From Kineosporia corallincola (GTDB lineage: Bacteria; Actinomycetota; Actinomycetes; Actinomycetales; Kineosporiaceae), in assembly GCF_018499875.1 (NCBI RefSeq), contig NZ_JAHBAY010000001.1:248001-312000 (forward strand): 64,000 nucleotides of DNA, in the 5' to 3' direction. The translations under genes and the position numbers were made by a program. Below, piece after piece: positions 1 through 44,219 of this stretch. A model generated the notes under the pieces. The model saw only the letters and a list, made by a program, of their open reading frames with translations. It searched no databases and had not been told where the DNA came from. How positions within the stretch are numbered: position 1 is the first letter of the stretch; each line of letters opens with the position of its first letter.

Positions 1-2460
1 GGCGTGGTGCCAGACCGACAGCGCGGCCTGCGGGTCGTTCTGCGCCAGCAGTCCGGCCAGGTCCGCCCCGGCCTGGGCGCGTTCGGCCGGGCGCACCCCC
101 TCCGGCAGCGTGGCCACGGCCTGGGTCAGCGTGCTCACCGCCGCAGCGTGCGGCTCGTCGCGGGCCCGCAGCCGCAGCATGCGGGTGAGCGCCCGCAGGT
201 GCCGGTGCTCCAGCCGTTCCGGCGGCACCGAGCGCAGCTGGGCCACCGCGGTCTCCAGCGGGTCGAAGTTCACCAGGTCGAGCGTCTGCGCCACCTCGCG
301 CACGTCTTCCGACGCCAGTCCCGCCCGCAGCTCGGCCAGCGGGTCGGGCCGGCGCCGGGACTGCCGCGGGTCGTCGTCGCCGTGCCACGGCCGGTGGCCG
401 GGCGACTCCTGCGGCGAGACCGGGATCGGGGTGGTGAGGAACGGGCCGATCAGTGATGTCGGCATCGCCACCGGGCCGAACGAGTCGCCGACCGACGGGT
501 CGTGGATCGGCTGGACCTCGTCCTCGTCCGGCTCGTCGCCGGTCTCGTCCTCGTCCGGTGCGTCGTCGACCACCAGGGGCTGGGTGGCCACCGGGATCAG
601 CGTGGTGGCCTCCTCCGGCAGCGCGCCCGGCACCGGCACCAGCTGGGAGATCTGGTCCGGCACGGGAACCCCTGCCGCGGCGGCGATCTCGCGGGCCAGA
701 ACCAGCCGCGACAGCGCCTCACCGAGGTCCGGGCCGGTGCCCAGGCCGGCCACCTCCGCGGCCAGCTCCTCGATCCGCTCCATCGCCGGCGCCGGCTGCA
801 TCAGGCGGCTCTGCGCCGCCGCGAGAACACAGGCCTGGTCGTGCAGCAGCGCCTCCAGGGGCAGGCCGGCCGCCCGCAGCCGCAGCGTGGCGGCCTGTGC
901 CGCCTCCATCAGGATCGGCGCCGCGGGCGAGGGCCCGTCCTCCGGATCGACCGGGTGCGTGGCGATCCCGTCGAGCGCCGACCAGCCGTCCAGCCGGGCC
1001 GCGGCGCGCTCGGCCTCCGGGTCGCCGGCGGTGTCGGCCAGGATGCGGGTGGCGCGCCAGCCCTCCAGCACGGCGCGCATGGCCGCGGCCGAGTCGGTGC
1101 GCAGGCCGTCTTCGAACTCCTTGGCCAGCACGGTGATGTCGGCGCTGTCGGGGGCCACCCCGTCGCCGCCGGCCCGTCGTCCCCGGCCGGTCGGCGCGGC
1201 CCACTCGCCCAGGCCCCGGCGCTCGAACGCCTCCAGCGGCATGTTCGGCAGCGACCCGGACCCGAGCGTCTCCCGCAGCCGCCCGCCGACCGTGGTGGTC
1301 TCGTTGCGCTGATCGAAAAGTTCTGCCAGGCGAGCGCTCTCGGCCAGTACCCGCTCACCGAGCAAGCCCACCGTGAGGTCTTCCGGACCGCCCAGCGCGG
1401 CCGGCAGCCGCTGCGCCCGGGTGGCGGGCAGCACCACCTCGCCGGAGTGCCCGGCCTCGGCCAGGCTCCAGGTCAGCCGGGCGATCGCCCCGGCCGACTC
1501 CAGCAGCTCCAGCGGTTCCGGGGCCCCGGCCAGCGCGGGCAGCCACTCCCGTAGCAGTCCCAGGCCGTGCCGGAGCCGTCCGGTGCGGGCGCAGGCCAGC
1601 AGTTGGTCGGCCGCCCCGGTGCCGCGCACCGCCTGCGCCGCCAGGGCGTCGCCGACGGCGGAGTCACCGGCGATGCCGGCGGCCGCGGCCGCCCCCGCCA
1701 GACGGGTGCGGATCAGCCGCACCGCGCGCACGTGCTCGGCCGCCGCGGCTCCCACCTCGCCGGTGCGCAGCAGCGCGGGCAGCACCGCCCCGATCATCCC
1801 GGCCGGCTGCGACTCGCACTCCGACCAGGCCGCCCGCAGCACCGGACCGGCGTGATCCACCGCCCGCTGGTAGGCGCCCAGCTCGACCAGGTGCCGCACC
1901 TGTTCCGCGCGCTCGCAGTCGGGGCACCCGGCCGGGTCCGGCCCGGCCTGCGCCGAGGCCTCGATCCAGGCGTCCAGCCCGGCGCCGGCGCTCTGTGCGC
2001 CGTGCACGTGCCGGGTGAACAGGAACCGGGCCCGCAGCACCGGCCCGGCCGGGTCGCCGGACCCGGCGTAGCGCTGCTCGGCGCCGGAGACGATGTGGTT
2101 GATCAGCGAGCGGGACACGTCCGGGTGGGGAATCAGCCCGGGCCCGGCCTCGGCCAGGTTGGCCAGCACCCGGTGGGCCAGCGGCTCGTCCAGCCAGCCG
2201 GGCGCCTCGTCGTAGCGGGCGGTCAGCCAGCCCAGCAGCTCGGGCACCCGGTCGTGCCGGCCGCCCGCGAGGCAGGCGGTCAGCAGGGCACTGCGGATCA
2301 GCGTGCCCAGCCTGCCGACCTCGGAGGCGCTGCCGGCCCGGGTCACCGAGGACAGCAACGTGTCGAGTTCGCCGATCCGCTCCGGGCCCACCGGTAGCGA
2401 CTCGGCGTCGGCCAGGGCCTCGCGGATCTCTTCGGACGCCGTGCTCACGCACCCGATCAT
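1..2460 (-). CDS. Large helical-repeat-like protein of unknown function (3' part cut by window edge)
   Basis: The minus-strand frame beginning at the ATG at 2460 stays open for 820 codons to the window edge, so the C-terminus is missing. A GGAAG motif lies about 6 bases upstream of the ATG. The product is Leu/Ala/Arg/Glu-rich with no signal peptide or obvious membrane segment. Around residues 165-200 it has a CPDCE motif followed by amphipathic helices resembling TPR-like repeats (LVELGAYQRAVDHAG). An acidic linker sits around residue 640 (DDAPDEDETGDEPDEDE). I do not recognise a family; a helical solenoid or scaffold role is only inferred. The long open frames on the plus strand here have Arg/Ser-rich shadow composition. 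Confidence 0.72.
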   Translation of the reverse strand, partial: MIGCVSTASEEIREALADAESLPVGPERIGELDTLLSSVTRAGSASEVGRLGTLIRSALLTACLAGGRHDRVPELLGWLTARYDEAPGWLDEPLAHRVLANLAEAGPGLIPHPDVSRSLINHIVSGAEQRYAGSGDPAGPVLRARFLFTRHVHGAQSAGAGLDAWIEASAQAGPDPAGCPDCERAEQVRHLVELGAYQRAVDHAGPVLRAAWSECESQPAGMIGAVLPALLRTGEVGAAAAEHVRAVRLIRTRLAGAAAAAGIAGDSAVGDALAAQAVRGTGAADQLLACARTGRLRHGLGLLREWLPALAGAPEPLELLESAGAIARLTWSLAEAGHSGEVVLPATRAQRLPAALGGPEDLTVGLLGERVLAESARLAELFDQRNETTTVGGRLRETLGSGSLPNMPLEAFERRGLGEWAAPTGRGRRAGGDGVAPDSADITVLAKEFEDGLRTDSAAAMRAVLEGWRATRILADTAGDPEAERAAARLDGWSALDGIATHPVDPEDGPSPAAPILMEAAQAATLRLRAAGLPLEALLHDQACVLAAAQSRLMQPAPAMERIEELAAEVAGLGTGPDLGEALSRLVLAREIAAAAGVPVPDQISQLVPVPGALPEEATTLIPVATQPLVVDDAPDEDETGDEPDEDEVQPIHDPSVGDSFGPVAMPTSLIGPFLTTPIPVSPQESPGHRPWHGDDDPRQSRRRPDPLAELRAGLASEDVREVAQTLDLVNFDPLETAVAQLRSVPPERLEHRHLRALTRMLRLRARDEPHAAAVSTLTQAVATLPEGVRPAERAQAGADLAGLLAQNDPQAALSVWHHA

Positions 2461-32844: not shown

Positions 32845-33447
32845 TCATCGGGTCAGCGCCGAAACCCGTTGCGGGTCCAGCAGATCGGTGTCCGCGTCCC
32901 GCCACAGCTGCCGCAGGTGACCGGCGCCCCGGGCCCGGGCCAGCGCGGCCTCGTCGTTCGTCATCGGCAGCACCGGGTAGAACCGGACCGGCTCCACGCC
33001 GTCCCGGTCCGGCACGGCTCCGGCCGCCACCAGGTCGAGGGGCGGAACCAGTTCGTCGTCCCCCAGCAGCACCGCGCTGACCCGCGCACCGGGCCACAAC
33101 GGCTGCCGCAGGTCGATCGTGGCACCGGCTCCCAGCACCAGGCCCTCGACCTGCGGGGTGGCGGCGAGCACGGCCAGGGTGCGCAGCACCTCGTCGCGCC
33201 CGGGCCGCAGGCTCAGCACGAGCTCCGCGCGCGGGCCGCGCAGCGGGTCGGCGACGGTGGCCGTGGCCGGGTGCATCGGTTCCTGACTGACGCCGGCGGT
33301 GGCGTAACGCACCACACCGGTGCGGTCCGGCCCGAACCGGTCGACGTTCAGCGGGCGAGTGCCGAGGAAGGTGACGGACGCACCGGCCACCGGCCCGGGG
33401 TAGGCCGCCGCGAGGTGCGAGCGGACGAGATCAGGGACGGCGGGCAC
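32845..33447 (-). CDS. Suppressor-of-fused (SUFU) domain protein
   Basis: This 200-aa protein is recognised as the bacterial SUFU-like family. An N-terminal helix is followed by FLGTRPLNVDRFGPDRTGVV and RYATAGVSQEPM, then ELVLSLRPGRDEVLRTLAVL and the C-terminal VEPVRFYPVLPMTNDEAALA. Bacterial SUFU proteins occur as immunity-like or accessory proteins; the biochemical role is unknown. The start is GTG 33447. It lies between QueE-like and TauE/SafE genes with gaps of 15 and 7 bp, so cotranscription is likely. Confidence 0.72.
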   Translation of the reverse strand: MPAVPDLVRSHLAAAYPGPVAGASVTFLGTRPLNVDRFGPDRTGVVRYATAGVSQEPMHPATATVADPLRGPRAELVLSLRPGRDEVLRTLAVLAATPQVEGLVLGAGATIDLRQPLWPGARVSAVLLGDDELVPPLDLVAAGAVPDRDGVEPVRFYPVLPMTNDEAALARARGAGHLRQLWRDADTDLLDPQRVSALTR

Positions 33448-34237: not shown

Positions 34238-34996
34238 GTGGGTGCCGATGACGAGCTGATGCACCGGGCCGGGCTGCTGCGGGCCGGTGAGCTGACGCCC
34301 GCCCCGCCCCGCCCGGCCGCGACCGTCGCCCTGCTGCGTGACTCGCCCGCCGGCCCGGAGGTCTACCTGCTGCGCCGGGTGCCGAAGATGGCCTTCGCCC
34401 CGGGGATGTACGTGTTCCCGGGCGGGTCGGTGGATCCGGCCGACGCGGACGGGACGCATGCCTGGGCCGGGCAGTGGGCGGGGCTGCTGGGCACGGACGA
34501 GGTGTCCGCCGTCGCCCTGGTGCGGGCGGCGGTGCGGGAGACGTTCGAGGAGGCGGGGGTCCTGCTGGCGTCGTCCACCGGTTCGATCGTGGTGCCCGAG
34601 ATCGAGCGTGCCGACCTGGAGGCCCGCCGGATCACCCTCACCACCCTGCTCGACCGGCACGGCCTGGTGCTGCGGCCCGGGCTGCTGGCGCCGCTCCAGC
34701 ACTGGATCACCCCGGAGCTGGAGCCGCGCCGCTACGACACCTGGTTCTTCGCGGCCGCCCTGCCTCCGGGTCAGGAGGCGCGCGAGGCCGGGAGCGAGGC
34801 GGACGACCGGGTCTGGGCCACCCCGGCCGCTGCGCTGGGGTCAGGGATGCGGCTGATGCCGCCGACCCGGGCCGCCCTGACCGAGCTCGCCCGCTACGCC
34901 ACGGTGGCCGAGGTGCTCGCCGCCGAACGTGAGATTGCCACCGTGCTGCCCCGTTTCGAGGTGATCGGGGAGAGGCTGGTGCGGATCGACCACTGA
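34238..34996 (+). CDS. NUDIX hydrolase
   Basis: This 252-aa protein starts at GTG 34238. The fold is marked by VYLLRRVPKMAFAPGMYVFP and GGSVDPADAD, then an insertion of about 35 residues before the helix RAAVRETFEEAGVLLA. That helix supplies the REUXEEXGU part of the Nudix box. The long insertion and the C-terminal helical part resemble the NUDT19/RppH-distant acyl-CoA or nucleotide diphosphatase subgroup. Substrate not assigned. The last 156 bp overlap, on the opposite strand, the 3' end of a membrane protein gene, so the two transcripts are antisense to each other. Confidence 0.85.
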   Translation: MGADDELMHRAGLLRAGELTPAPPRPAATVALLRDSPAGPEVYLLRRVPKMAFAPGMYVFPGGSVDPADADGTHAWAGQWAGLLGTDEVSAVALVRAAVRETFEEAGVLLASSTGSIVVPEIERADLEARRITLTTLLDRHGLVLRPGLLAPLQHWITPELEPRRYDTWFFAAALPPGQEAREAGSEADDRVWATPAAALGSGMRLMPPTRAALTELARYATVAEVLAAEREIATVLPRFEVIGERLVRIDH

Positions 34997-36148
34997 CTCC
35001 TCCCGGCGCACCCGACGGACCGTCAGGGCGGTCAGCGCCAGTGAGACCACCAGCAGGTAGCCGGTGTTCGGCCAGGGATACTCCCGGTGCAGCTGGGTGA
35101 CGGCCGCCCCGGCCAGCCCGAGCAGGAGCGCGAGCCGCTGGGCCGAGCATCTTTCGTGCAGCAGACCGATGCCGACGGTGACCAGCACCAGTACGGGCTG
35201 CCAGTAGTACTCCATGTTCAGCGGGTCGAGCAGCAGACGCACCACGACCACGGTGAGCGGCCCCAGCCAGATCAGGTCGCGACGGCGCCCCAGCAGGAGC
35301 GCCGCGGCGCACCCGGCCAGCCCGGTGGCCAGACCCTGGGCCAGGCGAGGGGCCCAGCCGACCTGGGCCGAACCGGGAAAAGCCATCCCGTAGAACGTGT
35401 CCCGCACCACCGGCCAGTGCAGCTCGAACATCGCGAACCGCCCGGTGACGACGAAGGGCAGGTAGGGGCCCACGGCCGCGACGGCGAAGACCAGGCAGGC
35501 GGGCGCCAGGCGGCGGGGGTTGCGCTCGACCAGCAGCAGCCCGGCCGCGAGCAGCCCCCAGGTCTCCCAGGCGGCCGAGAGGCCCAGCAGTACGGCGGCC
35601 CGGCCGGTGTGCCCGCGAACGGCCAGGCCGGTGGCCAGGATCCAGAACAGCGGCACGCCGAACTCGGCCAGGTGCCCGCCGCTCCAGAACCGGTGGGGCA
35701 GGGCCAGTACCAGCAGGGCGACGCCGGCCGCGAGTTCCGCGCCCGGGGCATGGTTCAGGCGGTTGACTCGCCGTAAGTGCCTGACCAGCAGCATCATTCC
35801 GGCGGTGAGCAGGGCCCCGCCGAGGGCGCGCAGGGCGATCCAGTCGCCCGTGGCGGAGGCCTGGTAGGCCGCCTCGTGCTGATGCGGGAACGGGAAAAGG
35901 GCCCAGCTGGCGAGTAGTTCGAGCGGTCCGCCCTGCATGAACGAGGTGGCGTAGACCGCACCGGGGCGGCCGCCGACGATCTGGCCCCCGGCCGCCGCGA
36001 AGGCCGCCATGTCATAGGTCTGCGGGGCGGTCATCAGGGCCGCCTCCACGGCCCCGGCCAGGCAGAGCCACCACCGCCACCGCACCGCCCGGCGCACGAT
36101 CGGGGCGAAACCGGGCAGCCGGGAGGCCATCACGCTCAGGTCAGGCAT
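34841..36148 (-). CDS. Multi-spanning membrane protein, probable GT-C glycosyltransferase (tandem paralogue 1)
   Basis: This 435-aa protein has roughly eleven hydrophobic segments. It shares long blocks with the two genes upstream of it. The shared early loop is TYDMAAFAAAGGQIVGGRPG followed by VYATSFMQGGPLELLASWAL. A conserved Asp in that loop is the position of the catalytic base in GT-C enzymes. Further shared motifs are YLPFVVTGRFAMFELHWPV and LLGRRRDLIWLGPLTVV. GT87/PMT-like polyprenyl-sugar transfer is inferred, not proven. The final 50 residues, after RRVRREESV, are absent from the paralogues and come from reading antisense through the NUDIX gene, suggesting loss of the original stop. 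Confidence 0.78.
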   Translation of the reverse strand: MPDLSVMASRLPGFAPIVRRAVRWRWWLCLAGAVEAALMTAPQTYDMAAFAAAGGQIVGGRPGAVYATSFMQGGPLELLASWALFPFPHQHEAAYQASATGDWIALRALGGALLTAGMMLLVRHLRRVNRLNHAPGAELAAGVALLVLALPHRFWSGGHLAEFGVPLFWILATGLAVRGHTGRAAVLLGLSAAWETWGLLAAGLLLVERNPRRLAPACLVFAVAAVGPYLPFVVTGRFAMFELHWPVVRDTFYGMAFPGSAQVGWAPRLAQGLATGLAGCAAALLLGRRRDLIWLGPLTVVVVRLLLDPLNMEYYWQPVLVLVTVGIGLLHERCSAQRLALLLGLAGAAVTQLHREYPWPNTGYLLVVSLALTALTVRRVRREESVVDPHQPLPDHLETGQHGGNLTFGGEHLGHRGVAGELGQGGPGRRHQPHP

Positions 36149-37346
36149 CGGCGGGTTCCTCCCGGCGGAGCACCACCAGCAGCGCGGTGATCAGGGCCGA
36201 GGTGACGCCGATCGTCGTCACCCCGAGGTCTTGCACGTAGCGGTTCTGGACGTGGGGCACACAGCAGAGCAGGGCCACCAGCCCGAGCCGCCACGGTGAG
36301 CAGCCCGGATGCAGGAGGGACACCCCGGCCACGGCCAGAACCAGGAGTGGGTACCAGTAGTTGGGCAGCAGAACCGGGTCGAGCAACAGCCGGGCCGTCA
36401 CCACCGCGAGCGGCCCGAGCCAGACCAGGTCACGCCGCCGGCCCAGCACCAGGGCCACGGCGACCCCGGCCAGCCCGGCCACCAGGCCCTGGAGAAACCG
36501 GTACGGCCAGCCGAATTCGGTGAGCTGGGGCAGGAGCGTGTGCACCAGGGTGAGCTGACGTACCGGCCAGGCCAGGGCGAACATCTCGAACCGGCCGGTG
36601 ACGACGAAGGGCAGGTAGCAGGACAGCGCCCCGACGACGAAGGCGGCCACGGCCCGCAGCAGCGGTCCCGGGCGGCGGTCGACCAGCAGCAGGCCCGCCG
36701 CCAGCACACCCCACGACTGCCAGCCCGCCGACAACCCGATGACCAGGCCCGCGGCCGTGGTGCGGCCCCGCACCGCGAGCGAGGCCCCGGCCACCCACAT
36801 CACCGGCACCGCGAACTGGGACAGGTGCCCCTCCGCCCAGAAGTAGTAGGGGACGGCGAGGAGCACGGCCGTCAGCCCCGCCAGCAGCTCCAGCGGCTGC
36901 GAGCGGGGCAGCCGGTGCAGGGTGCGCAGCCGCCGGGCACCGAGCATGCACACGGCCACCAGCGCGGCCCCGGTGACCAGGCGCAACCAGATCTGGCCCT
37001 GCTGGCCGACCGCGGCGTAGCCCGCCTCGTGCTGGTGCGGGAACGGGAAAAGGGCCCAGCTGGCGAGCAGTTCGAGCGGTCCGCCCTGCATGAACGAGGT
37101 GGCGTAGACGTCGCCGAGCCGGCCGGTGACGATCCAGCCGCCGGCCTCGGAGAAGCGGATCAGGTCGTACGGCTGGCCGGTGCCGGGCCGGATCTGCGCG
37201 TACGCCTCGACCGCGCCGACCGGGCAGAGCAGCCAGCGCAGGCGGGCGAGCCGGTGCAGCAGCGGGATCAGCCCGCTCAGCGGGTGCACCGCCGCCGATG
37301 TCTCAGACAAGACGGGCCGCCGGCTGCGTGATCCCCTGCGGGGCAA
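36141..37346 (-). CDS. Multi-spanning membrane protein, probable GT-C glycosyltransferase (tandem paralogue 2)
   Basis: This paralogue of up to 401 aa (ATG 37346) overlaps the preceding gene by 44 bp. A TTG at 37310 would give a shorter product beginning at SETSAAVHPL and is a reasonable alternative. It has the shared loop QPYDLIRFSEAGGWIVTGRL and the VYATSFMQGGPLELLASWAL block, identical to paralogue 1. PYYFWAEGHLSQFAVPVMWV and CYLPFVVTGRFEMFALAWPV are also conserved. It ends cleanly at VVLRREEPADA, 8 bp past the start of paralogue 1 (coupled overlap). The function is inferred as membrane glycosyltransfer. Confidence 0.8.
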   Translation of the reverse strand: MPRRGSRSRRPVLSETSAAVHPLSGLIPLLHRLARLRWLLCPVGAVEAYAQIRPGTGQPYDLIRFSEAGGWIVTGRLGDVYATSFMQGGPLELLASWALFPFPHQHEAGYAAVGQQGQIWLRLVTGAALVAVCMLGARRLRTLHRLPRSQPLELLAGLTAVLLAVPYYFWAEGHLSQFAVPVMWVAGASLAVRGRTTAAGLVIGLSAGWQSWGVLAAGLLLVDRRPGPLLRAVAAFVVGALSCYLPFVVTGRFEMFALAWPVRQLTLVHTLLPQLTEFGWPYRFLQGLVAGLAGVAVALVLGRRRDLVWLGPLAVVTARLLLDPVLLPNYWYPLLVLAVAGVSLLHPGCSPWRLGLVALLCCVPHVQNRYVQDLGVTTIGVTSALITALLVVLRREEPADA

Positions 37347-38535
37347 CGGTTTCCTCCCGGCGCAGCCGCAGGGTCAGCGCGGCGAGCAGCACCAGGGCGG
37401 CCAGGAGCAGCGGCACCTCCAGCCCAGGGGCGTAGCGGAACCGGATCAGGGGCACCGCGGCGAGCGAGATCGTCAGGGCCACGCGCACCGGTGAGCAGTG
37501 CGGATGCAGCAGTCCCAGCCCGGCCACGACGGCGATCAGGAACGGGCCCCAGTAGTAGCTGAGGATCAGCGGGTCGAGCAGCAGCCGCACCACCAGCACG
37601 GCCAGCGGCGCCGCCCAGACCAGGTCGCGGCGGCGGCCCAGCAGCAGCGCCGTCGCGGCCCCCGCCGCCCCGGCCGCCGCGCCTTGCAGAAGCCGCAGCG
37701 GCCAGCCGAATCCGGTCAGGCCGGGGAACAGCGCGTGCACCGGCGTCCCGGGCCGGATCTGCCAGTCCAGGCCGAACATCGCGAACTGGCCGGTGACGAC
37801 GAAGGGCAGGTAGCAGGCCAGCGCGCCGACGGTGAGGGCGGCGCAGCCGGCGAGGAGACGGGCGGGTGCGCGCTCGGCCAGCAGGATGCCGCCGGCCAGA
37901 AGCCCCCAGGGTTCCCAGCCCGTGGCCAGACCGAGCACCAGACCGGCGGACGTGGTGCGGCCCCGCACGACCAGGCAGGCTCCGGCGACCCACATCACCG
38001 GCGCCCCGGTCTGGGCCAGGTGCCCACCCATCCAGAACTGATAGGGGACGGCGAGGAGCACGGCCGTGAGTCCCGCCAGCAGTTCCGCCGGTGCCGAGCG
38101 GGGAAGGTCGAGGGTGGAGCGCAGACACCGCACGGCGAGCAGCACCGCCGCCACGATCGCGGCACCGGTGAGCAGCCGGAGCCAGATCTGGCCGTCCGGG
38201 CCGGTCACCACGTAGCGCCGCACGTGCTGGTGGTCGAAGGGGAAGAAGGCCCAGCTGGCGAGCAGTTCCAGGGGGCCCGCCTGCATCCACGGATCGGCGT
38301 AGACCCGGTCGAGGCGGCCGTGCACGATCAGGTCGCCGGCGGCGGCGAAGCGCACCAGGTCGGCCGGCTGGATCGCCCCGTTCATCACGGTGGCGGCGGA
38401 CTGGGCCGCCCCGACCAGGCAGAGCAGCCAGCGCAGCCGGGCCACCCGGTGCAGGGCCGGGGCCAGGCCGGCCAGGGGGTGTCCGGCCGGTTTCTGCCCG
38501 GCGAGGGCCGGAGGTTCAGGAGTGCCGGTCGCCAC
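37303..38535 (-). CDS. Multi-spanning membrane protein, probable GT-C glycosyltransferase (tandem paralogue 3)
   Basis: This 410-aa protein is first in the leftward three-gene operon. It has the conserved loop IQPADLVRFAAAGDLIVHGR followed by VYADPWMQAGPLELLASWAF, slightly diverged from the other two. PYQFWMGGHLAQTGAPVMWV and CYLPFVVTGQFAMFGLDW match the shared core. About eleven spans are predicted. It lies only 32 bp from the helicase stop on the same strand, so read-through from the helicase is possible. The three copies have the same order of motifs throughout, indicating tandem duplication. Confidence 0.8.
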   Translation of the reverse strand: MATGTPEPPALAGQKPAGHPLAGLAPALHRVARLRWLLCLVGAAQSAATVMNGAIQPADLVRFAAAGDLIVHGRLDRVYADPWMQAGPLELLASWAFFPFDHQHVRRYVVTGPDGQIWLRLLTGAAIVAAVLLAVRCLRSTLDLPRSAPAELLAGLTAVLLAVPYQFWMGGHLAQTGAPVMWVAGACLVVRGRTTSAGLVLGLATGWEPWGLLAGGILLAERAPARLLAGCAALTVGALACYLPFVVTGQFAMFGLDWQIRPGTPVHALFPGLTGFGWPLRLLQGAAAGAAGAATALLLGRRRDLVWAAPLAVLVVRLLLDPLILSYYWGPFLIAVVAGLGLLHPHCSPVRVALTISLAAVPLIRFRYAPGLEVPLLLAALVLLAALTLRLRREETVAPQGITQPAARLV

Positions 38536-38567: not shown

Positions 38568-40394
38568 TTACTTACCGGGGTACGACTTCCGGAACTGCTT
38601 GCGGCCCTCGAAGTTGCTGCGGGCGCGCTGCGGCGGCGGGCCGTCGGTCTTGGTCAGCTGGATCAGCTTGCCCGAGATCCGGGTCTGGGTGAGTGCCTCC
38701 ACGGTCTCGCGGGAGAGCGTGGCGGGCAGCTCGACCAGGGTGTGGTCGGCCTGGATGTCGATGTGCCCGAAGTCGGAACGGCCGAGGCCGCCCTCGTTCG
38801 CGATCGCCCCGACGATGGCACCGGGCTGCACCCGGTGCCGGCGCCCGACGGCGATCCGGTACGTGGCCAGGGGCACGTCACCGCGGGGACGGCGGGGTCC
38901 GGCCACCCGCGGCGCGGGCCGGCCGTTCCGGTCGCCCCGGTCGCGGAGCGGCTCACGGGCCGGGCGGCGGGCCGACGGCGGCGGGTCGGGCGGCAGCAGG
39001 AAGGCCTTGCCGGCCTGGGCCATCACGGCCAGCGCGGCGGCCACCTCGGCGGCGGGCACGTCGTGCTCGGCGATGTACTCCTCGATCAGGCCGCGGAACA
39101 CCGCCACCTCGGGGTTGTCGAGGTTGGCCTTGATCGAGTCGGTGAACTTGGCCACGCGGGTCGAGTTCACGTCGTCGGCCGTCGGCAGCGGCATCTCCTC
39201 GATCGTCGAGCGGGTGGCCCGCTCGATCGACCCGAGGAGCCGCTTCTCGCGCGGGGTGACGAACAGCAGCGCCTCGCCCGAGCGCCCGGCCCGGCCGGTG
39301 CGGCCGATCCGGTGCACGTACGACTCGCTGTCGTGCGGGATGTCGAAGTTGACGACGTGGGTGATGCGCTCGACGTCGAGACCGCGGGCGGCGACGTCGG
39401 TGGCCACCAGGATGTCGAGCTGGCCGGACTTGAGCTGGCCGATCGTGCGCTCACGCTGCTGCTGGGCCAGGTCGCCGTTGATGGCGGCGGCGGAGAACCC
39501 GCGCGAGCGCAGGCGCTCGGCCAGTTCCTCGGTGGCCTGCTTCGTGCGCACGAAGATGATCATGGCCTCGAAGTCCTCGACCTCGAGCACCCGGGTGAGG
39601 GCGTCCACCTTCTGCTGGTGACCCACGAAGATGTAGCGCTGCCGGGTGTTGGTCGACGTCACCGTGCGGTTGGCCACAGTGATCTCGGCCGCGTCGGTGA
39701 GGTACTTCTTCGAGATGCGCCGGATCTGCGGGGGCATGGTGGCGGAGAACAGGGCGACCTGCTTCTCCTCCGGCGTGGTGGCCAGGATGGTCTCCACGTC
39801 TTCCTGGAAACCCATCTGGAGCATCTCGTCGGCCTCGTCCAGCACCAGGTACTTCAGCTGGGACAGGTCGAGGGTGCGCTTCTCCAGGTGATCGATCACC
39901 CGTCCGGGCGTACCGACCACGATGTGCGCGCCGCGCTTGAGGCCGGCCAGCTGCACCCCGTAGCTCTGGCCGCCGTAGATCGGCAGCACGTGCAGACCGG
40001 GGATGTGGTGCGAGTAGCGGCCGAAGGCCTCGGCCACCTGGAGCGCGAGCTCGCGGGTCGGGGCCAGCACCAGGGCCTGGGGGGAGCGCTGGGTCAGGTC
40101 GATGCGGCTCAGCACGGGCAGGGCGAACGCGGCGGTCTTGCCGGTACCGGTCTGGGCCAGGCCGACCAGGTGGCGGCCTTCCATCAGCGGCGGGATGGCC
40201 GCGGCCTGGATCGGTGAGGGCATTTCGTAGCCGACGTCGCTGAGGGCACGCAGCACCCGCTCGTCGATCCCCAGATCGGCGAAGGTGGGCTGGGCCTCGA
40301 CGTCCGGGGCCTCGTCGGGAAGCGGCCCGGCGGAAGTTTCGGGGGAGTCCGCGGGGTCTTCCGGGGCGTCGCGGACGGCGGGATCGGTGTTCAT
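38568..40394 (-). CDS. DEAD-box RNA helicase with DbpA-type RNA-binding domain
   Basis: This 608-aa helicase has an acidic N-terminus and a Q motif (FADLGIDERVLRAL, then PSPIQ). Motif I is AQTGTGKT near residue 80. PTRELALQ, TPGR, the DEAD box near residue 183, SAT near 215, IIFVRT, ATDVAARGLD and HRIGRTGR near 360 follow in order. The C-terminus has a helical dimerisation-like region, an Arg/Pro-rich linker and a DbpA-like RNA-binding domain (YRIAVGRRHRVQPGAIVGAI). The layout is that of CsdA/DeaD helicases acting in ribosome assembly, mRNA decay and cold response. The ATG at 40394 follows a GGTGGG motif; an earlier ATG at 40433 is less likely. Confidence 0.94.
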   Translation of the reverse strand: MNTDPAVRDAPEDPADSPETSAGPLPDEAPDVEAQPTFADLGIDERVLRALSDVGYEMPSPIQAAAIPPLMEGRHLVGLAQTGTGKTAAFALPVLSRIDLTQRSPQALVLAPTRELALQVAEAFGRYSHHIPGLHVLPIYGGQSYGVQLAGLKRGAHIVVGTPGRVIDHLEKRTLDLSQLKYLVLDEADEMLQMGFQEDVETILATTPEEKQVALFSATMPPQIRRISKKYLTDAAEITVANRTVTSTNTRQRYIFVGHQQKVDALTRVLEVEDFEAMIIFVRTKQATEELAERLRSRGFSAAAINGDLAQQQRERTIGQLKSGQLDILVATDVAARGLDVERITHVVNFDIPHDSESYVHRIGRTGRAGRSGEALLFVTPREKRLLGSIERATRSTIEEMPLPTADDVNSTRVAKFTDSIKANLDNPEVAVFRGLIEEYIAEHDVPAAEVAAALAVMAQAGKAFLLPPDPPPSARRPAREPLRDRGDRNGRPAPRVAGPRRPRGDVPLATYRIAVGRRHRVQPGAIVGAIANEGGLGRSDFGHIDIQADHTLVELPATLSRETVEALTQTRISGKLIQLTKTDGPPPQRARSNFEGRKQFRKSYPGK

Positions 40395-40434
40395 CGCCCA
40401 CCAATCTACGGAGCCGGGCCAGTTCCTGCACAAC

Positions 40435-40518: not shown

Positions 40519-42177
40519 CTAATCCCCGGTGGCCACGGCGGCCTCCCCGGAGGCGGCCGGCGGGGCCGAGTCGGGGGCCCGGTCGACCGTGTAATCGGCC
40601 TCCTGGGTGGCATCGGGCAGCTCCGGGGCACCCGCTCGGCGCAGTACCAGGGTGAGCAGGACGGTGACGGCCAGGTTGGCCAGCACGGCGACGAAGCCGA
40701 CGTAGATCTGCTTGTCGCTGTCGAGCCCGGCCAGTGACAGCCGGTAGGCCGAGCCGCCGAAGTGCTCCTTGCCGGTGGCCGCGTTCGGGATCTGGTAGAG
40801 CATCCCGATCCCGACGGCGAGCCCGGCGACCAGACCGGAGGTGAGCGCCCAGGGGTGCAGCCAGCGGGTGTACACCCCGATCGCGACCGAGGGCAGGGTC
40901 TGGAGGATCAGCACGCCGCCGATGAGTTGCAGGTCGATGGCGAACTGCGGGTCGAGGAAGACGATGGCCGCGACCGCGCCGAGCTTGACCACCAGCGAGG
41001 CCAGCTTGCTGACCTTGGCCTCCTGCGCCGGGGTGGCGTCCTTGCGCAGGTACTCCTTGTAGACGTTGCGGGTGAACAGGTTCGCCGCGGCGATCGACAT
41101 GATCGCGGCGGGCACCAGCGCCCCGATGCCGATGGTCGCGTAGGCGACACCGGCGAACCAGTCCGGGAACATCTTGTCGAACAGCACCGGCACGATCGTG
41201 TTGGTGTCGACCGAGCCGTCCGCGTCGACCAGCGGGCCCACGCCGAAGTCCTGGGTGGCGGCCAGCGCCATGTAGCCCAGCAGCGCGATCAGCCCGAGCA
41301 GGAAGCTGTAGGCCGGCAGCGCGGACATGTTCCGCTTGATCGCGTTACGGTCCTTGGCGGCCAGCACGCTGGTCAGCGAGTGCGGGTAGAGGAACACGGC
41401 GAGCCCGGAACCGAGCGCCAGGGTGATGTATTGCAGCTGGTTGTTCGCGGTCAGCAGCAGGCTGCCCTTGGGCTGCCCGGTGGCCGGGCTGGTCTGGGAC
41501 AGCGCCTCCTCGGCCCGGCCGAAGATCACGTCCCAGCCGCCGAGCTTGTACGGGATCACGATCACCGCGACGATGATGACCAGGTAGATCAGCCCGTCCT
41601 TGACGAACGCGATCAGCGCCGGTGCCCGCAGCCCGGAGCTGTACGTGTACAGGGCGAGGATCAGGAACGCGATGACGATCGGCAGGTGGCCGGTCACGCC
41701 CATCACCTTCAGCACCGCCTCGATGCCGACCAGCTGCAACGCGATGTACGGCATGGTGGCGACGATCCCGGTGAGCGCCACCAGCAGGGCCAGGGTGGGG
41801 GAACCGAAGCGGCCCCGGACGAAGTCGGCCGGGGTGACGTAGCCGTTCCGGTAGCTCACCGACCACAGCCGGGTGACCACCAGGAACGCCAGCGGGTAGA
41901 TGACGATGGAGTACGGGATGGCGTAGAAGCCGATCGCGCCCGCCGAGAACACCAGCGCCGGGACGGCGACGAAGGTGTAGGCGGTGTAGAGGTCACCGCC
42001 GAGCAGGAACCAGGTCACCCAGGTGCCGAAATTCCTTCCACCCAGACCCCATTCGTTCAGGTGGTCGAGCGATTCGGCGCGCCGCCAGCGGGCGGCCGCG
42101 AAGCCCATGATCGAGACCAGGGCGAAAAGTGCGGTGAATACCACGAGTTCGGTGATGTGGTCGGAGGCGTGCGGCAT
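40519..42177 (-). CDS. Sodium:solute symporter (SSS family, MctC-like), cassette copy 1
   Basis: This 552-aa protein has about 13 spans with the SSS core: GLGGRNFGTWVTWFLLGGDL at the first helices, TALLVALTGIVATMPYIALQ-like helices and SSGLRAPALIAFVKDG. The C-terminal tail is Ala/Asp-rich. The nearest family is actinobacterial monocarboxylate (acetate, propionate, pyruvate) uptake. It is coupled to a DUF3311 protein 3 bp upstream, its usual small partner subunit. Compared with copy 2 it has a short insertion (GPLVDADGSV) before DTNTIVPVLFDKMF; otherwise the two are almost co-linear and largely identical. Confidence 0.9.
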   Translation of the reverse strand: MPHASDHITELVVFTALFALVSIMGFAAARWRRAESLDHLNEWGLGGRNFGTWVTWFLLGGDLYTAYTFVAVPALVFSAGAIGFYAIPYSIVIYPLAFLVVTRLWSVSYRNGYVTPADFVRGRFGSPTLALLVALTGIVATMPYIALQLVGIEAVLKVMGVTGHLPIVIAFLILALYTYSSGLRAPALIAFVKDGLIYLVIIVAVIVIPYKLGGWDVIFGRAEEALSQTSPATGQPKGSLLLTANNQLQYITLALGSGLAVFLYPHSLTSVLAAKDRNAIKRNMSALPAYSFLLGLIALLGYMALAATQDFGVGPLVDADGSVDTNTIVPVLFDKMFPDWFAGVAYATIGIGALVPAAIMSIAAANLFTRNVYKEYLRKDATPAQEAKVSKLASLVVKLGAVAAIVFLDPQFAIDLQLIGGVLILQTLPSVAIGVYTRWLHPWALTSGLVAGLAVGIGMLYQIPNAATGKEHFGGSAYRLSLAGLDSDKQIYVGFVAVLANLAVTVLLTLVLRRAGAPELPDATQEADYTVDRAPDSAPPAASGEAAVATGD

Positions 42178-42587: not shown

Positions 42588-44219
42588 TCAGTCCCCGGCG
42601 ACCGCGGCCGGCTCGCCCGAGGCGGCCGGCGGCGGTGCGTCGGGCGACCGGTCGACCGTGTAGTCGCCCGGCCGGGTGGCGTCCGGGGTGTCCGGGGCGC
42701 CGGCCCGGCGCAGCACCAGGGTGAGCAGGACCGCGACGATCAGGTTGGCGAGCACGGCGACGAAGCCGACGTAGATCTGCTTGTCGGTGTCGAACCCGGC
42801 CAGCGACAGCCGGTAGGCGGAGCCGCCGAAGTGCTCCTTGCCGTTGTTCGGGTTGGGGATCTGGTAGAGCATCCCGATCCCCACCGCCAGCCCGGCGATC
42901 AGGCCGGTGCTGAGCGCCCACGGGTGCAGCCAGCGGGTGTACACGCCGAGGGCCACGGACGGCAGGGTCTGGAGGATCAGCACCCCACCGATCAGTTGCA
43001 GGTCGATCGCGAACTGCGGGTCGAGGAACAGGATCACCAGCACGGCACCGACTTTCACCACCAGCGAGGTGATCTTGCTGGTGGCCGCCTCCTGGGCCGG
43101 GGTGGCATCCTTCTTCAGGTACTCCTTGTACACGTTGCGGGTGAACAGGTTCGCCGCCGCGATCGACATGATCGAGGCCGGCACCAGCGCCCCGATGCCG
43201 ATCGCCGCGTAACAGACCCCGGCGAACCAGTCCGGGAACATCTGGTCGAACAGCGAGGGCACGATCGTGTTGGTGTCCTTGCCGATCGGCTTGATCCCGG
43301 CGGCGATCGCCATGTATCCGAGCAGTGCGATCAGCCCGAGCAGGAAGCTGTAGGCCGGCAGCGCGGACATGTTCTTCTTGATCGTGTCGCGGTTCTTCGC
43401 CGCCAGCACGCTGGTCAGCGAGTGCGGGTAGAGGAACAGCGCCAGGGCCGAGCCGAGGGCCAGGGTGATGTATTGCAGCTGGTTGTTCGCGTTCAGCAGG
43501 ATGCTGCCCTTGGGCGCCCCGGTGTTCGGATTGGTCTGCCCCAGAGCCGTTTCCGCGCTGCCGAAGATGACGTCCCAGCCGCCGAGCTTGTACGGGATCA
43601 CGATCACGGCCACGATGATGACCAGGTAGATCAGCGTGTCCTTGACGAACGCGATGAGTGCCGGGGCGCGCAGGCCCGAGCTGTAGGTGTACACCGCCAG
43701 AATCAGGAACGCGATGACGATCGGCAGATGCCCGGTCACGCCCATCACCTTCAGCACCGCCTCGATGCCGATCAGCTGCAACGCGATGTAGGGCATGGTG
43801 GCGACGATCCCGGTGATCGCGACCAGCAGGGCCAGGGTGGGGGAGCCGAAGCGTCCGCGCACGAAGTCGGCCGGGGTGACGTAGCCGTGCCGGTAACTGA
43901 CCGACCACAGCCGCGTCATCACCAGGAACGCCATCGGGTAGATCAGGATCGTGTAGGGGACGGCGTAGAAACCGATCGCCCCGGAGGCGAACACCAGGGC
44001 GGGCACCGCCACGAAGGTGTAGGCCGTGTAAAGGTCGCCACCGAGCAGGAACCAGGTGATCCAGGTGCCGAAATTCCTTCCGCCCAGACCCCATTCGTCC
44101 AGATGGTCGAGCGACTCGGCGCGCCGCCAGCGGGCGGCCGCGAAGCCCATCCCGGAGACCAGCAGGAACAGCAGCGTGAAGACCACGAGTTCGGTGACGT
44201 GGTCGGAGGCCGACGGCAT
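42588..44219 (-). CDS. Sodium:solute symporter (SSS family, MctC-like), cassette copy 2
   Basis: This 543-aa protein is a close paralogue of copy 1 along the whole length. Both begin with GWGLGGRNFGTW-type sequence and end with a TVDR-containing Ala/Pro-rich tail. Conserved core blocks such as AAANLFTRNVYKEYL and GGVLILQTLPSVA are the same in both. The main difference is a shorter loop (AAGIKPIGKDTNTIVPSLFD). It is 3 bp downstream of its own DUF3311 gene. The second copy may have changed substrate range or regulation; the sequence does not say. Confidence 0.9.
   Translation of the reverse strand: MPSASDHVTELVVFTLLFLLVSGMGFAAARWRRAESLDHLDEWGLGGRNFGTWITWFLLGGDLYTAYTFVAVPALVFASGAIGFYAVPYTILIYPMAFLVMTRLWSVSYRHGYVTPADFVRGRFGSPTLALLVAITGIVATMPYIALQLIGIEAVLKVMGVTGHLPIVIAFLILAVYTYSSGLRAPALIAFVKDTLIYLVIIVAVIVIPYKLGGWDVIFGSAETALGQTNPNTGAPKGSILLNANNQLQYITLALGSALALFLYPHSLTSVLAAKNRDTIKKNMSALPAYSFLLGLIALLGYMAIAAGIKPIGKDTNTIVPSLFDQMFPDWFAGVCYAAIGIGALVPASIMSIAAANLFTRNVYKEYLKKDATPAQEAATSKITSLVVKVGAVLVILFLDPQFAIDLQLIGGVLILQTLPSVALGVYTRWLHPWALSTGLIAGLAVGIGMLYQIPNPNNGKEHFGGSAYRLSLAGFDTDKQIYVGFVAVLANLIVAVLLTLVLRRAGAPDTPDATRPGDYTVDRSPDAPPPAASGEPAAVAGD

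Follow-up and report, generated by a model that had tools for sequence, protein, structure and literature searches.

Tandem paralogues with a predicted GT-C fold in Kineosporia corallincola and gene conversion between two of the copies

The described systems closest to the three adjacent genes reported here (genes 1-3, minus strand of a 64,000-nt stretch of the 8.2-Mb genome of Kineosporia corallincola, contig NZ_JAHBAY010000001.1, positions 248,001 to 312,000; the window) are membrane glycosyltransferases of the GT-C fold, above all the GT87 family and PimE. PMC12041525 describes D58 of PimE as the catalytic base (D58A/N are inactive), reports that alanine mutants of Q163 and K195 are inactive and that K195 holds the donor phosphate, and shows the acceptor enclosed by PL1, JM1 and JM4. 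A similar predicted fold links genes 1-3 to the eukaryotic dolichol-phosphate GT-C enzymes GPI-MT-I/PIG-M, ALG3 and ALG6, and to PIG-U, a GPI transamidase subunit. As an evolutionary pattern, tandem copies with gene conversion are of an ordinary, familiar kind. The array resembles other bacterial tandem paralogue arrays with conversion in its variable copy number and in a short tract exchanged between neighbours; it differs in that the predicted product is a membrane glycosyltransferase, of which the tract spans an active-site loop, and in that a single event is seen and no switching system.

Genes 1-3, numbered in the order of transcription, occupy positions 37303-38535 (410 aa, GTG start), 36141-37346 (401 aa, TTG start) and 34841-36148 (435 aa, ATG start) and encode GT-C/GT87-like multi-spanning membrane proteins. 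They are alignable end to end, with ungapped protein identities of 232/399, 195/383 and 189/383 for the three pairs (49-58%), and are tandem paralogues. An earlier note made from the sequence alone had placed three leftward genes of the same motif order and length at these positions; the open reading frames and the motif order were found as described, whereas the equality of length is loose, gene 3 carrying an antisense tail. We favour, with a probability of roughly 0.6, the explanation that tandem duplication downstream of a DEAD-box helicase gene gave rise, in this lineage, to three isoforms of a GT87-like polyprenyl-phosphate-sugar transferase, which are probably co-translated and of which one was patched on the acceptor side of the active site.

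Gene conversion between genes 2 and 3

In trees built without the tract described below, gene 3 grouped with the second family gene of Kineosporia mesophila and with the single gene of a further Kineosporia genome, G009 (100% in 9-row trees, 94/92 in a 19-row tree). We refer to this group as B-type, and to genes 1 and 2, the single copies of other Kineosporia genomes and the first K. mesophila gene as A-type (branch support 87/90). The trees do not decide whether genes 1 and 2 are mutual closest relatives; their synonymous difference of 0.34 is the lowest between gene 1 and eight other genes (0.41-0.50 for the rest).

Genes 2 and 3 share a tract (minus strand) at 37022-37109 in gene 2 (residues 80-108) and 35869-35956 in gene 3 (residues 65-93; VYATSFMQGGPLELLASWALFPFPHQHEA), with 2 mismatches in 88 nt and the next mismatches at 35868 and 35957. 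Nucleotide identity of the two genes is 97.7% in the tract and 59.1% elsewhere, and the same 29 residues are encoded by both. The earlier note had reported an 86-nt pair (35871-35956 and 37024-37109, two differences), which was recovered exactly, and had proposed aligning the copies all against all, which bore out both the paralogy and the 88-nt tract. Its labelling of the partners as copies 1 and 2 does not follow the order of transcription, which makes them genes 2 and 3; between gene 1 and gene 2 there are differences at 20 of the 86 positions.

Either gene conversion or strong constraint on a conserved motif had been suggested as the origin of this identity. Constraint is favoured by the position of the block, which is among the best conserved parts of the protein, and by the K. 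mesophila pair, whose best segment also lies there (columns 84-96, 10/2000 permutations), a weaker signal that may itself be due to constraint. However, in genes 2 and 3 the synonymous codons match as well: identical residues are encoded by identical codons in 27 of 29 cases inside the tract and in 99 of 166 outside (Fisher p 0.0003), and nonsynonymous and synonymous differences (dN, dS) are 0 and 0.11 in the tract, compared with 0.54 and 0.72 outside it. The best-segment score of the pair was 32.9, a value not reached in any of 10,000 codon permutations (maximum 17.4), and the pair was the one clear outlier among the 36 pairs of nine genus members (runner-up score 14.2). Over the tract codons gene 3 has 98% identity with gene 2, compared with 61% and 57% for its two B-type orthologues. 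The trees are in conflict: the tract joined genes 2 and 3 with 98% bootstrap support in 9-row trees, whereas the rest of the gene placed gene 3 with the B-type genes, and the tract data rejected the rest-of-gene tree (approximately unbiased test, p 0.0009) as the rest rejected the tract tree (p 2.5e-10). On the strength of the permutations, the comparison of 36 pairs and the tree conflict we reject strong constraint as the sole cause of the identity, an explanation that is highly improbable. A bounded tract of high identity that includes synonymous sites and conflicts with the phylogeny of its flanks marks genes 2 and 3 as a gene-conversion pair. At the place where all six A-type genes and gene 3 have PF.xQH, both remaining B-type genes have NPSAGGxMRC, indicating that A-type sequence entered gene 3 and that the direction of conversion was from gene 2 to gene 3.

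Two further candidates for conversion were rejected. A second tract around YLPFVVTG was too weak (genes 1-3, 18/2000 permutations; genes 2-3 outside the tract, 8/2000), and this region is common, to a degree, to the three copies and their relatives. In a tandem pair from another family of the order (genome G134) the best segment, LDPxRLTYY (28/2000), is likely due to constraint.

In gene 1 numbering the tract corresponds to residues 78-106, which begin just past the predicted helix 58-71 and take in helices 88-97 and 101-104. According to PMC12041525, its PimE counterpart (PL1, with JM1 and JM2) borders the acceptor. Gene 3 therefore probably received the acceptor-side residues of gene 2 in place of its own, as judged from the predicted structure and from the analogy with PimE. 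In gene 3 the loop that leads from the first juxtamembrane helix to the membrane helices after it would have become A-type, and acceptor-side residues would have passed between isoforms. Gene 3 would then be a natural experiment, in which an active-site loop was received from a neighbouring copy.

Predicted fold and active-site positions

The structures of the gene 1 and gene 3 proteins were predicted with AlphaFold2 (predicted local distance difference test, pLDDT, 74.2 and 66.9; predicted template modelling score, pTM, 0.78 and 0.68, respectively). Both models matched solved GT-C enzymes across most of the chain, and the best structural matches of both were GPI-MT-I, ALG3, PIG-U, ALG6 and PimE. 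For gene 1 the Z scores were 17.8 for GPI-MT-I (root-mean-square deviation 4.9, 331 residues aligned), 17.1 for ALG3 (4.7, 339), 16.0 for PIG-U (5.3, 331), 15.8 for ALG6 (4.5, 348) and 15.7 for PimE (4.7, 324); for gene 3 they were 17.3, 14.5, 15.8 (entry 7w72), 16.7 and 14.0 in the same order. Entries that we take to be of the GT-C-fold class filled rows 1-31 of the 50 rows of the gene 1 ranking (Z 17.8 to 7.4; first unrelated row 7.4) and rows 1-9 of the gene 3 ranking (Z 17.3-12.6; first unrelated row 10.3). Foldseek alone gave a probability of 1.00 for ALG3 and PimE, with E values of 0.006 and 0.045. Profile-profile comparison with hhalign points to remote homology to GT87, with probabilities of 97.5 against 16 PimE-like rows and 98.4 against 32 GT87 rows from the same bacterial family (408 and 405 columns, full length), values that hydrophobic composition may inflate. 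The predicted structures and these profile matches support a GT-C fold for genes 1-3 and distant kinship with GT87, in line with the earlier note, which had suggested GT-C glycosyltransferases.

The note had also proposed a search with family profiles. Genes 1-3 matched no family at E<=1 in Pfam or in NCBIfam, and no PDB sequence at E<=10 was found with a 3-row or a 19-row profile; NCBIfam searched with the 19 rows returned a single chance-level match. GT87 (PF09594) was matched at E<=1 by 5 of 19 relatives, one of them over the curated cut-off; among ten relatives scanned against this profile (cut-off 25 bits) one scored 26.5 and one 24.8 bits. Genes 1-3 themselves fall below the curated cut-off, and membership in GT87 as Pfam defines it was rejected.

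Genes 1-3 are like GT87 and PimE in having a predicted GT-C fold over about 320 residues, a full-length profile match, a first juxtamembrane helix with an Asp of the catalytic type and a similar length (383 residues in entry 9dm5), but unlike them they lie under Pfam detection, and no link to phosphatidylinositol mannoside (PIM) genes was seen. With GPI-MT-I/PIG-M, ALG3 and ALG6 they share the predicted fold (Z 15.8-17.8), although identity in the structural alignments is 8-12% and the PIG-M profile gave one weak match, in one relative only (E 0.041). A few searches of openly licensed papers yielded no description of the family.

As the earlier note had described, an Asp (D59 in gene 1 numbering) precedes the block VYxxxxMQxGPLELLASWxxFPF in all three genes. 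In a 19-row alignment of the family (A5; it excludes second copies, L079-L086, L031, which is in the 13-row alignment A3, and the unextracted relatives G347, G377, G402, G409, G507, G742, G792, G827 and G896), 13 columns are invariant, namely D59, F63, Q85, G87, P88, W210, P244, W258, R281, Q284, R317, D321 and Y328, down to 25% identity with gene 1. D59 lies at the start of the predicted helix 58-71, so that all 19 rows have an acidic residue on the first juxtamembrane helix. The hhalign alignment pairs Asp59 with the Asp, His172 with the G-Q motif Gln and Glu208 with the Lys of GT87; their equivalence to D58, Q163 and K195 of PimE, respectively, follows the motifs given in PMC12041525. We infer that Asp59, at the tip of the helix, would be the base that activates the acceptor hydroxyl, and that genes 1-3 most likely encode polyprenyl-phosphate-sugar-dependent glycosyltransferases acting at the outer face of the membrane, in a divergent, unnamed GT87-like subfamily.

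The donor side differs from GT87. At position 208, Glu stands in 11 rows, Lys in 4 and Asp in 3, and gene 2 is the one row with Gln; genes 1-3 have Glu, Gln and Glu, whereas Lys occupies the donor-phosphate position in 28 of the 32 GT87 rows, as it does in 8 more distant relatives outside the alignment. Where GT87 has the Gln of its G-Q motif, His is found in 18 of the 19 rows. Lys-type rows split from the others in the tree with moderate branch support (87/85), and all four of them have Glu at position 175; of the 15 others, 14 lack an acid there and only gene 3 has one (Glu). In addition to its Gln at the position of gene 1 Glu208, gene 2 has Asn at that of gene 1 Tyr327.

Competing explanations

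Several observations weigh against a transferase of the GT87 kind. Pfam, NCBIfam and PDB sequence searches were silent, both structural models came from alignments of only 6 rows, Foldseek alone found no match at E<=0.001, and PIG-U, which has the same fold and another function, scored as high as PimE. At the equivalent of PimE K195, 15 of the 19 rows have Glu, Asp or Gln, S-Y-Y-W stands in place of the GT87 W-x-H-H (register uncertain), and the partner Tyr after the catalytic Asp is Phe; given these changes, the donor or the activity may differ. Several distant relatives outside the 19-row alignment appear, by eye, to have no Asp at the catalytic position (SWHF/SWHY), and in the fetched neighbourhoods no neighbour named a glycan pathway.

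One alternative is that the proteins have kept the GT-C fold without sugar transfer, as scaffold, lipid-binding or sensing proteins like PIG-U, the copies differing in their partners. The place of PIG-U among the best structural matches of both models, the loss of the GT87 donor-phosphate Lys and the further deviations of gene 2 (positions 208 and 327) and gene 3 (position 175) speak for this. We nevertheless consider this explanation unlikely, as the 13 invariant columns, including Asp59, Gln85, Arg281, Gln284, Arg317, Asp321 and Tyr328, look like a maintained active site, and PIG-U acts within a large complex, whereas neither such partner genes nor any other conserved partner gene stood beside the relatives in the neighbourhoods viewed. 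In another alternative, gene 1 could be the functional gene, with genes 2 and 3 recent redundant duplicates drifting under relaxed selection and the conversion an accident without consequence. Copy number is indeed unstable across the genus, genes 2 and 3 deviate at otherwise conserved positions, and dN/dS is 0.74-0.79 for the window paralogues vs 0.42-0.56 for gene 1 and the single copies among most A-type orthologues. Yet all three frames are open at full length, the B-type copy is old, judging by its occurrence in both K. mesophila and G009, and dN/dS is still below 1, though these uncorrected values (Nei-Gojobori method, NG86), obtained at 72-74% G+C, are rough either way. Redundancy therefore seems to us improbable.

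The array represents a divergent family of GT87-like membrane proteins, with a conserved Asp and an altered donor-site charge, that goes unrecognised in genes 1-3 by Pfam and NCBIfam. A bolder version of the preferred reading, which we regard as speculative and quite doubtful, is that the donor site of these GT-C proteins has its charge swapped and that, in this genome, the array is diversifying as acceptor-side cassettes are copied from one active gene to the next. The enzymes could then rely on a different leaving group in the donor, on a bound metal or on the invariant Arg317 instead of the Lys, and the copying of cassettes would amount to a bacterial route to new glycosyltransferase specificities.

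Copy number, distribution and neighbouring genes

Family members were found in 6 of 13 searched genomes of the bacterial family, all six from Kineosporia, and in none of the seven genomes of five other genera (a weak Kineosporia match, G005:C67, E 4e-4, not recovered with a profile, was excluded from the copy counts). Mapping of neighbours in Kineosporiaceae, proposed by the earlier note, located family genes between the helicase and NUDIX genes in five of the six genomes and at an aroB-aroQ locus in one. The helicase-NUDIX locus holds three copies in the window, two in K. mesophila and one in each of three other genomes. Because the four other orthologous loci carry 2, 1, 1 and 1 copies, the triplication is a lineage-specific amplification; in view of this variation we reject a fixed three-gene system, and the suggestion of a three-gene subunit set is not supported; a substrate-diversified family would fit. 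In the sixth genome, G009, the helicase gene adjoins the NUDIX gene with no family member between them, and the single copy has aroB and a Uma2-domain gene as its neighbours; aroQ, efp and nusB are found further out.

Beyond the genus, matches at E<=0.001 were obtained in 9/297 genomes of the order, 19/394 of the class and 6/396 of the phylum, the window's own genome included; these samples overlap, and the search profiles differed. Linked tandem copies occur in three genomes (the window, K. mesophila and G134), and four genomes have two copies on separate contigs (G322, G330, G347 and G367). The independent G134 pair, joined by an ATGA stop/start overlap, shows that homologues are not always unlinked single copies, an outcome that would have spoken against the earlier note.

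Apart from the five helicase-NUDIX genomes there are 27 matching genomes, and in 7 of the 22 whose neighbourhoods were viewed (G009, G134, G297, G627, G454, G742 and G792) the family gene lies in an aroC/aroB/aroQ/efp/nusB neighbourhood, not every marker being detected in each. Members at these loci (L028, L029, L075, L078, L079, L142 and L144) reach up to phylum distance; because both Lys-type and acid-type members are found there, the location appears to be old. A further member, in G896 (L141), is separated from aroC by about 4 kb. We rejected a link to the shikimate pathway, since the association is one of location only and no functional argument was found. Two tandem Uma2-like genes, and no family member, occupy the aroB-aroQ gap of three Kineosporia genomes (L067 6126-7355, L068 8102-9252, L069 8168-9462); a Uma2 domain was demonstrated for the G009 homologue.

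At the window locus, a gap of 32 nt separates the start of gene 1 from the stop codon of the upstream DEAD-box RNA helicase gene (38568-40433, minus strand; DEAD, Helicase_C, DeaD_dimer and DbpA domains), a conserved flank; the corresponding gaps of the four other loci measure 32, 32, 32 and 39 nt, with starts taken from the longest open reading frames. The start of gene 2 lies 44 nt inside the end of gene 1, and that of gene 3 overlaps gene 2 by 8 nt. The Shine-Dalgarno-like sequence GGGAGGAA (putative function) occurs on the minus strand at 37351-37358 in the last codons of gene 1, upstream of the gene 2 TTG (37346), and again at 36156-36163 in those of gene 2, upstream of the gene 3 ATG (36148), in both cases as part of Arg-Arg-Glu-Glu. 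Because each start overlaps the preceding gene and follows such a sequence, genes 1-3 are probably translated together, by coupling. No sigma-70-type promoter or intrinsic terminator was predicted between 34000 and 40600 (0.1 and 1.1 expected), which is uninformative at the local G+C content.

On the other side, gene 3 converges with the NUDIX-domain gene (34238-34996, plus strand), also a conserved flank, and overlaps it by 156 nt (34841-34996). About 50 C-terminal residues of gene 3 are therefore encoded on the strand opposite the 3' end of the NUDIX gene, and the model shows residues 389-435 as unstructured, at low confidence. In K. mesophila, too, the B-type gene overlaps the NUDIX gene by 156 nt; in the remaining three loci an 11-nt overlap was seen twice and a 123-nt gap once. 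Beyond the NUDIX gene all five loci carry a SUFU-domain gene, a TauE-type permease gene and an ABC ATPase gene. The SUFU-domain gene (32845-33447, minus strand in the window; PF05076, E 2.3e-23) is kept in the flank of the family gene in G009 too. Between the SUFU-domain and NUDIX genes, the window, L025 and L027 have a radical-SAM QueE-like gene, for which L024, L026 and L140 gave no match. A second tandem duplication lies beside the array: two sodium:solute symporter genes (40519-42177 and 42588-44219, minus strand) encode proteins that are 84.6% identical, and the symporter has one place each in the four other Kineosporia helicase-NUDIX loci and in the G009 locus.

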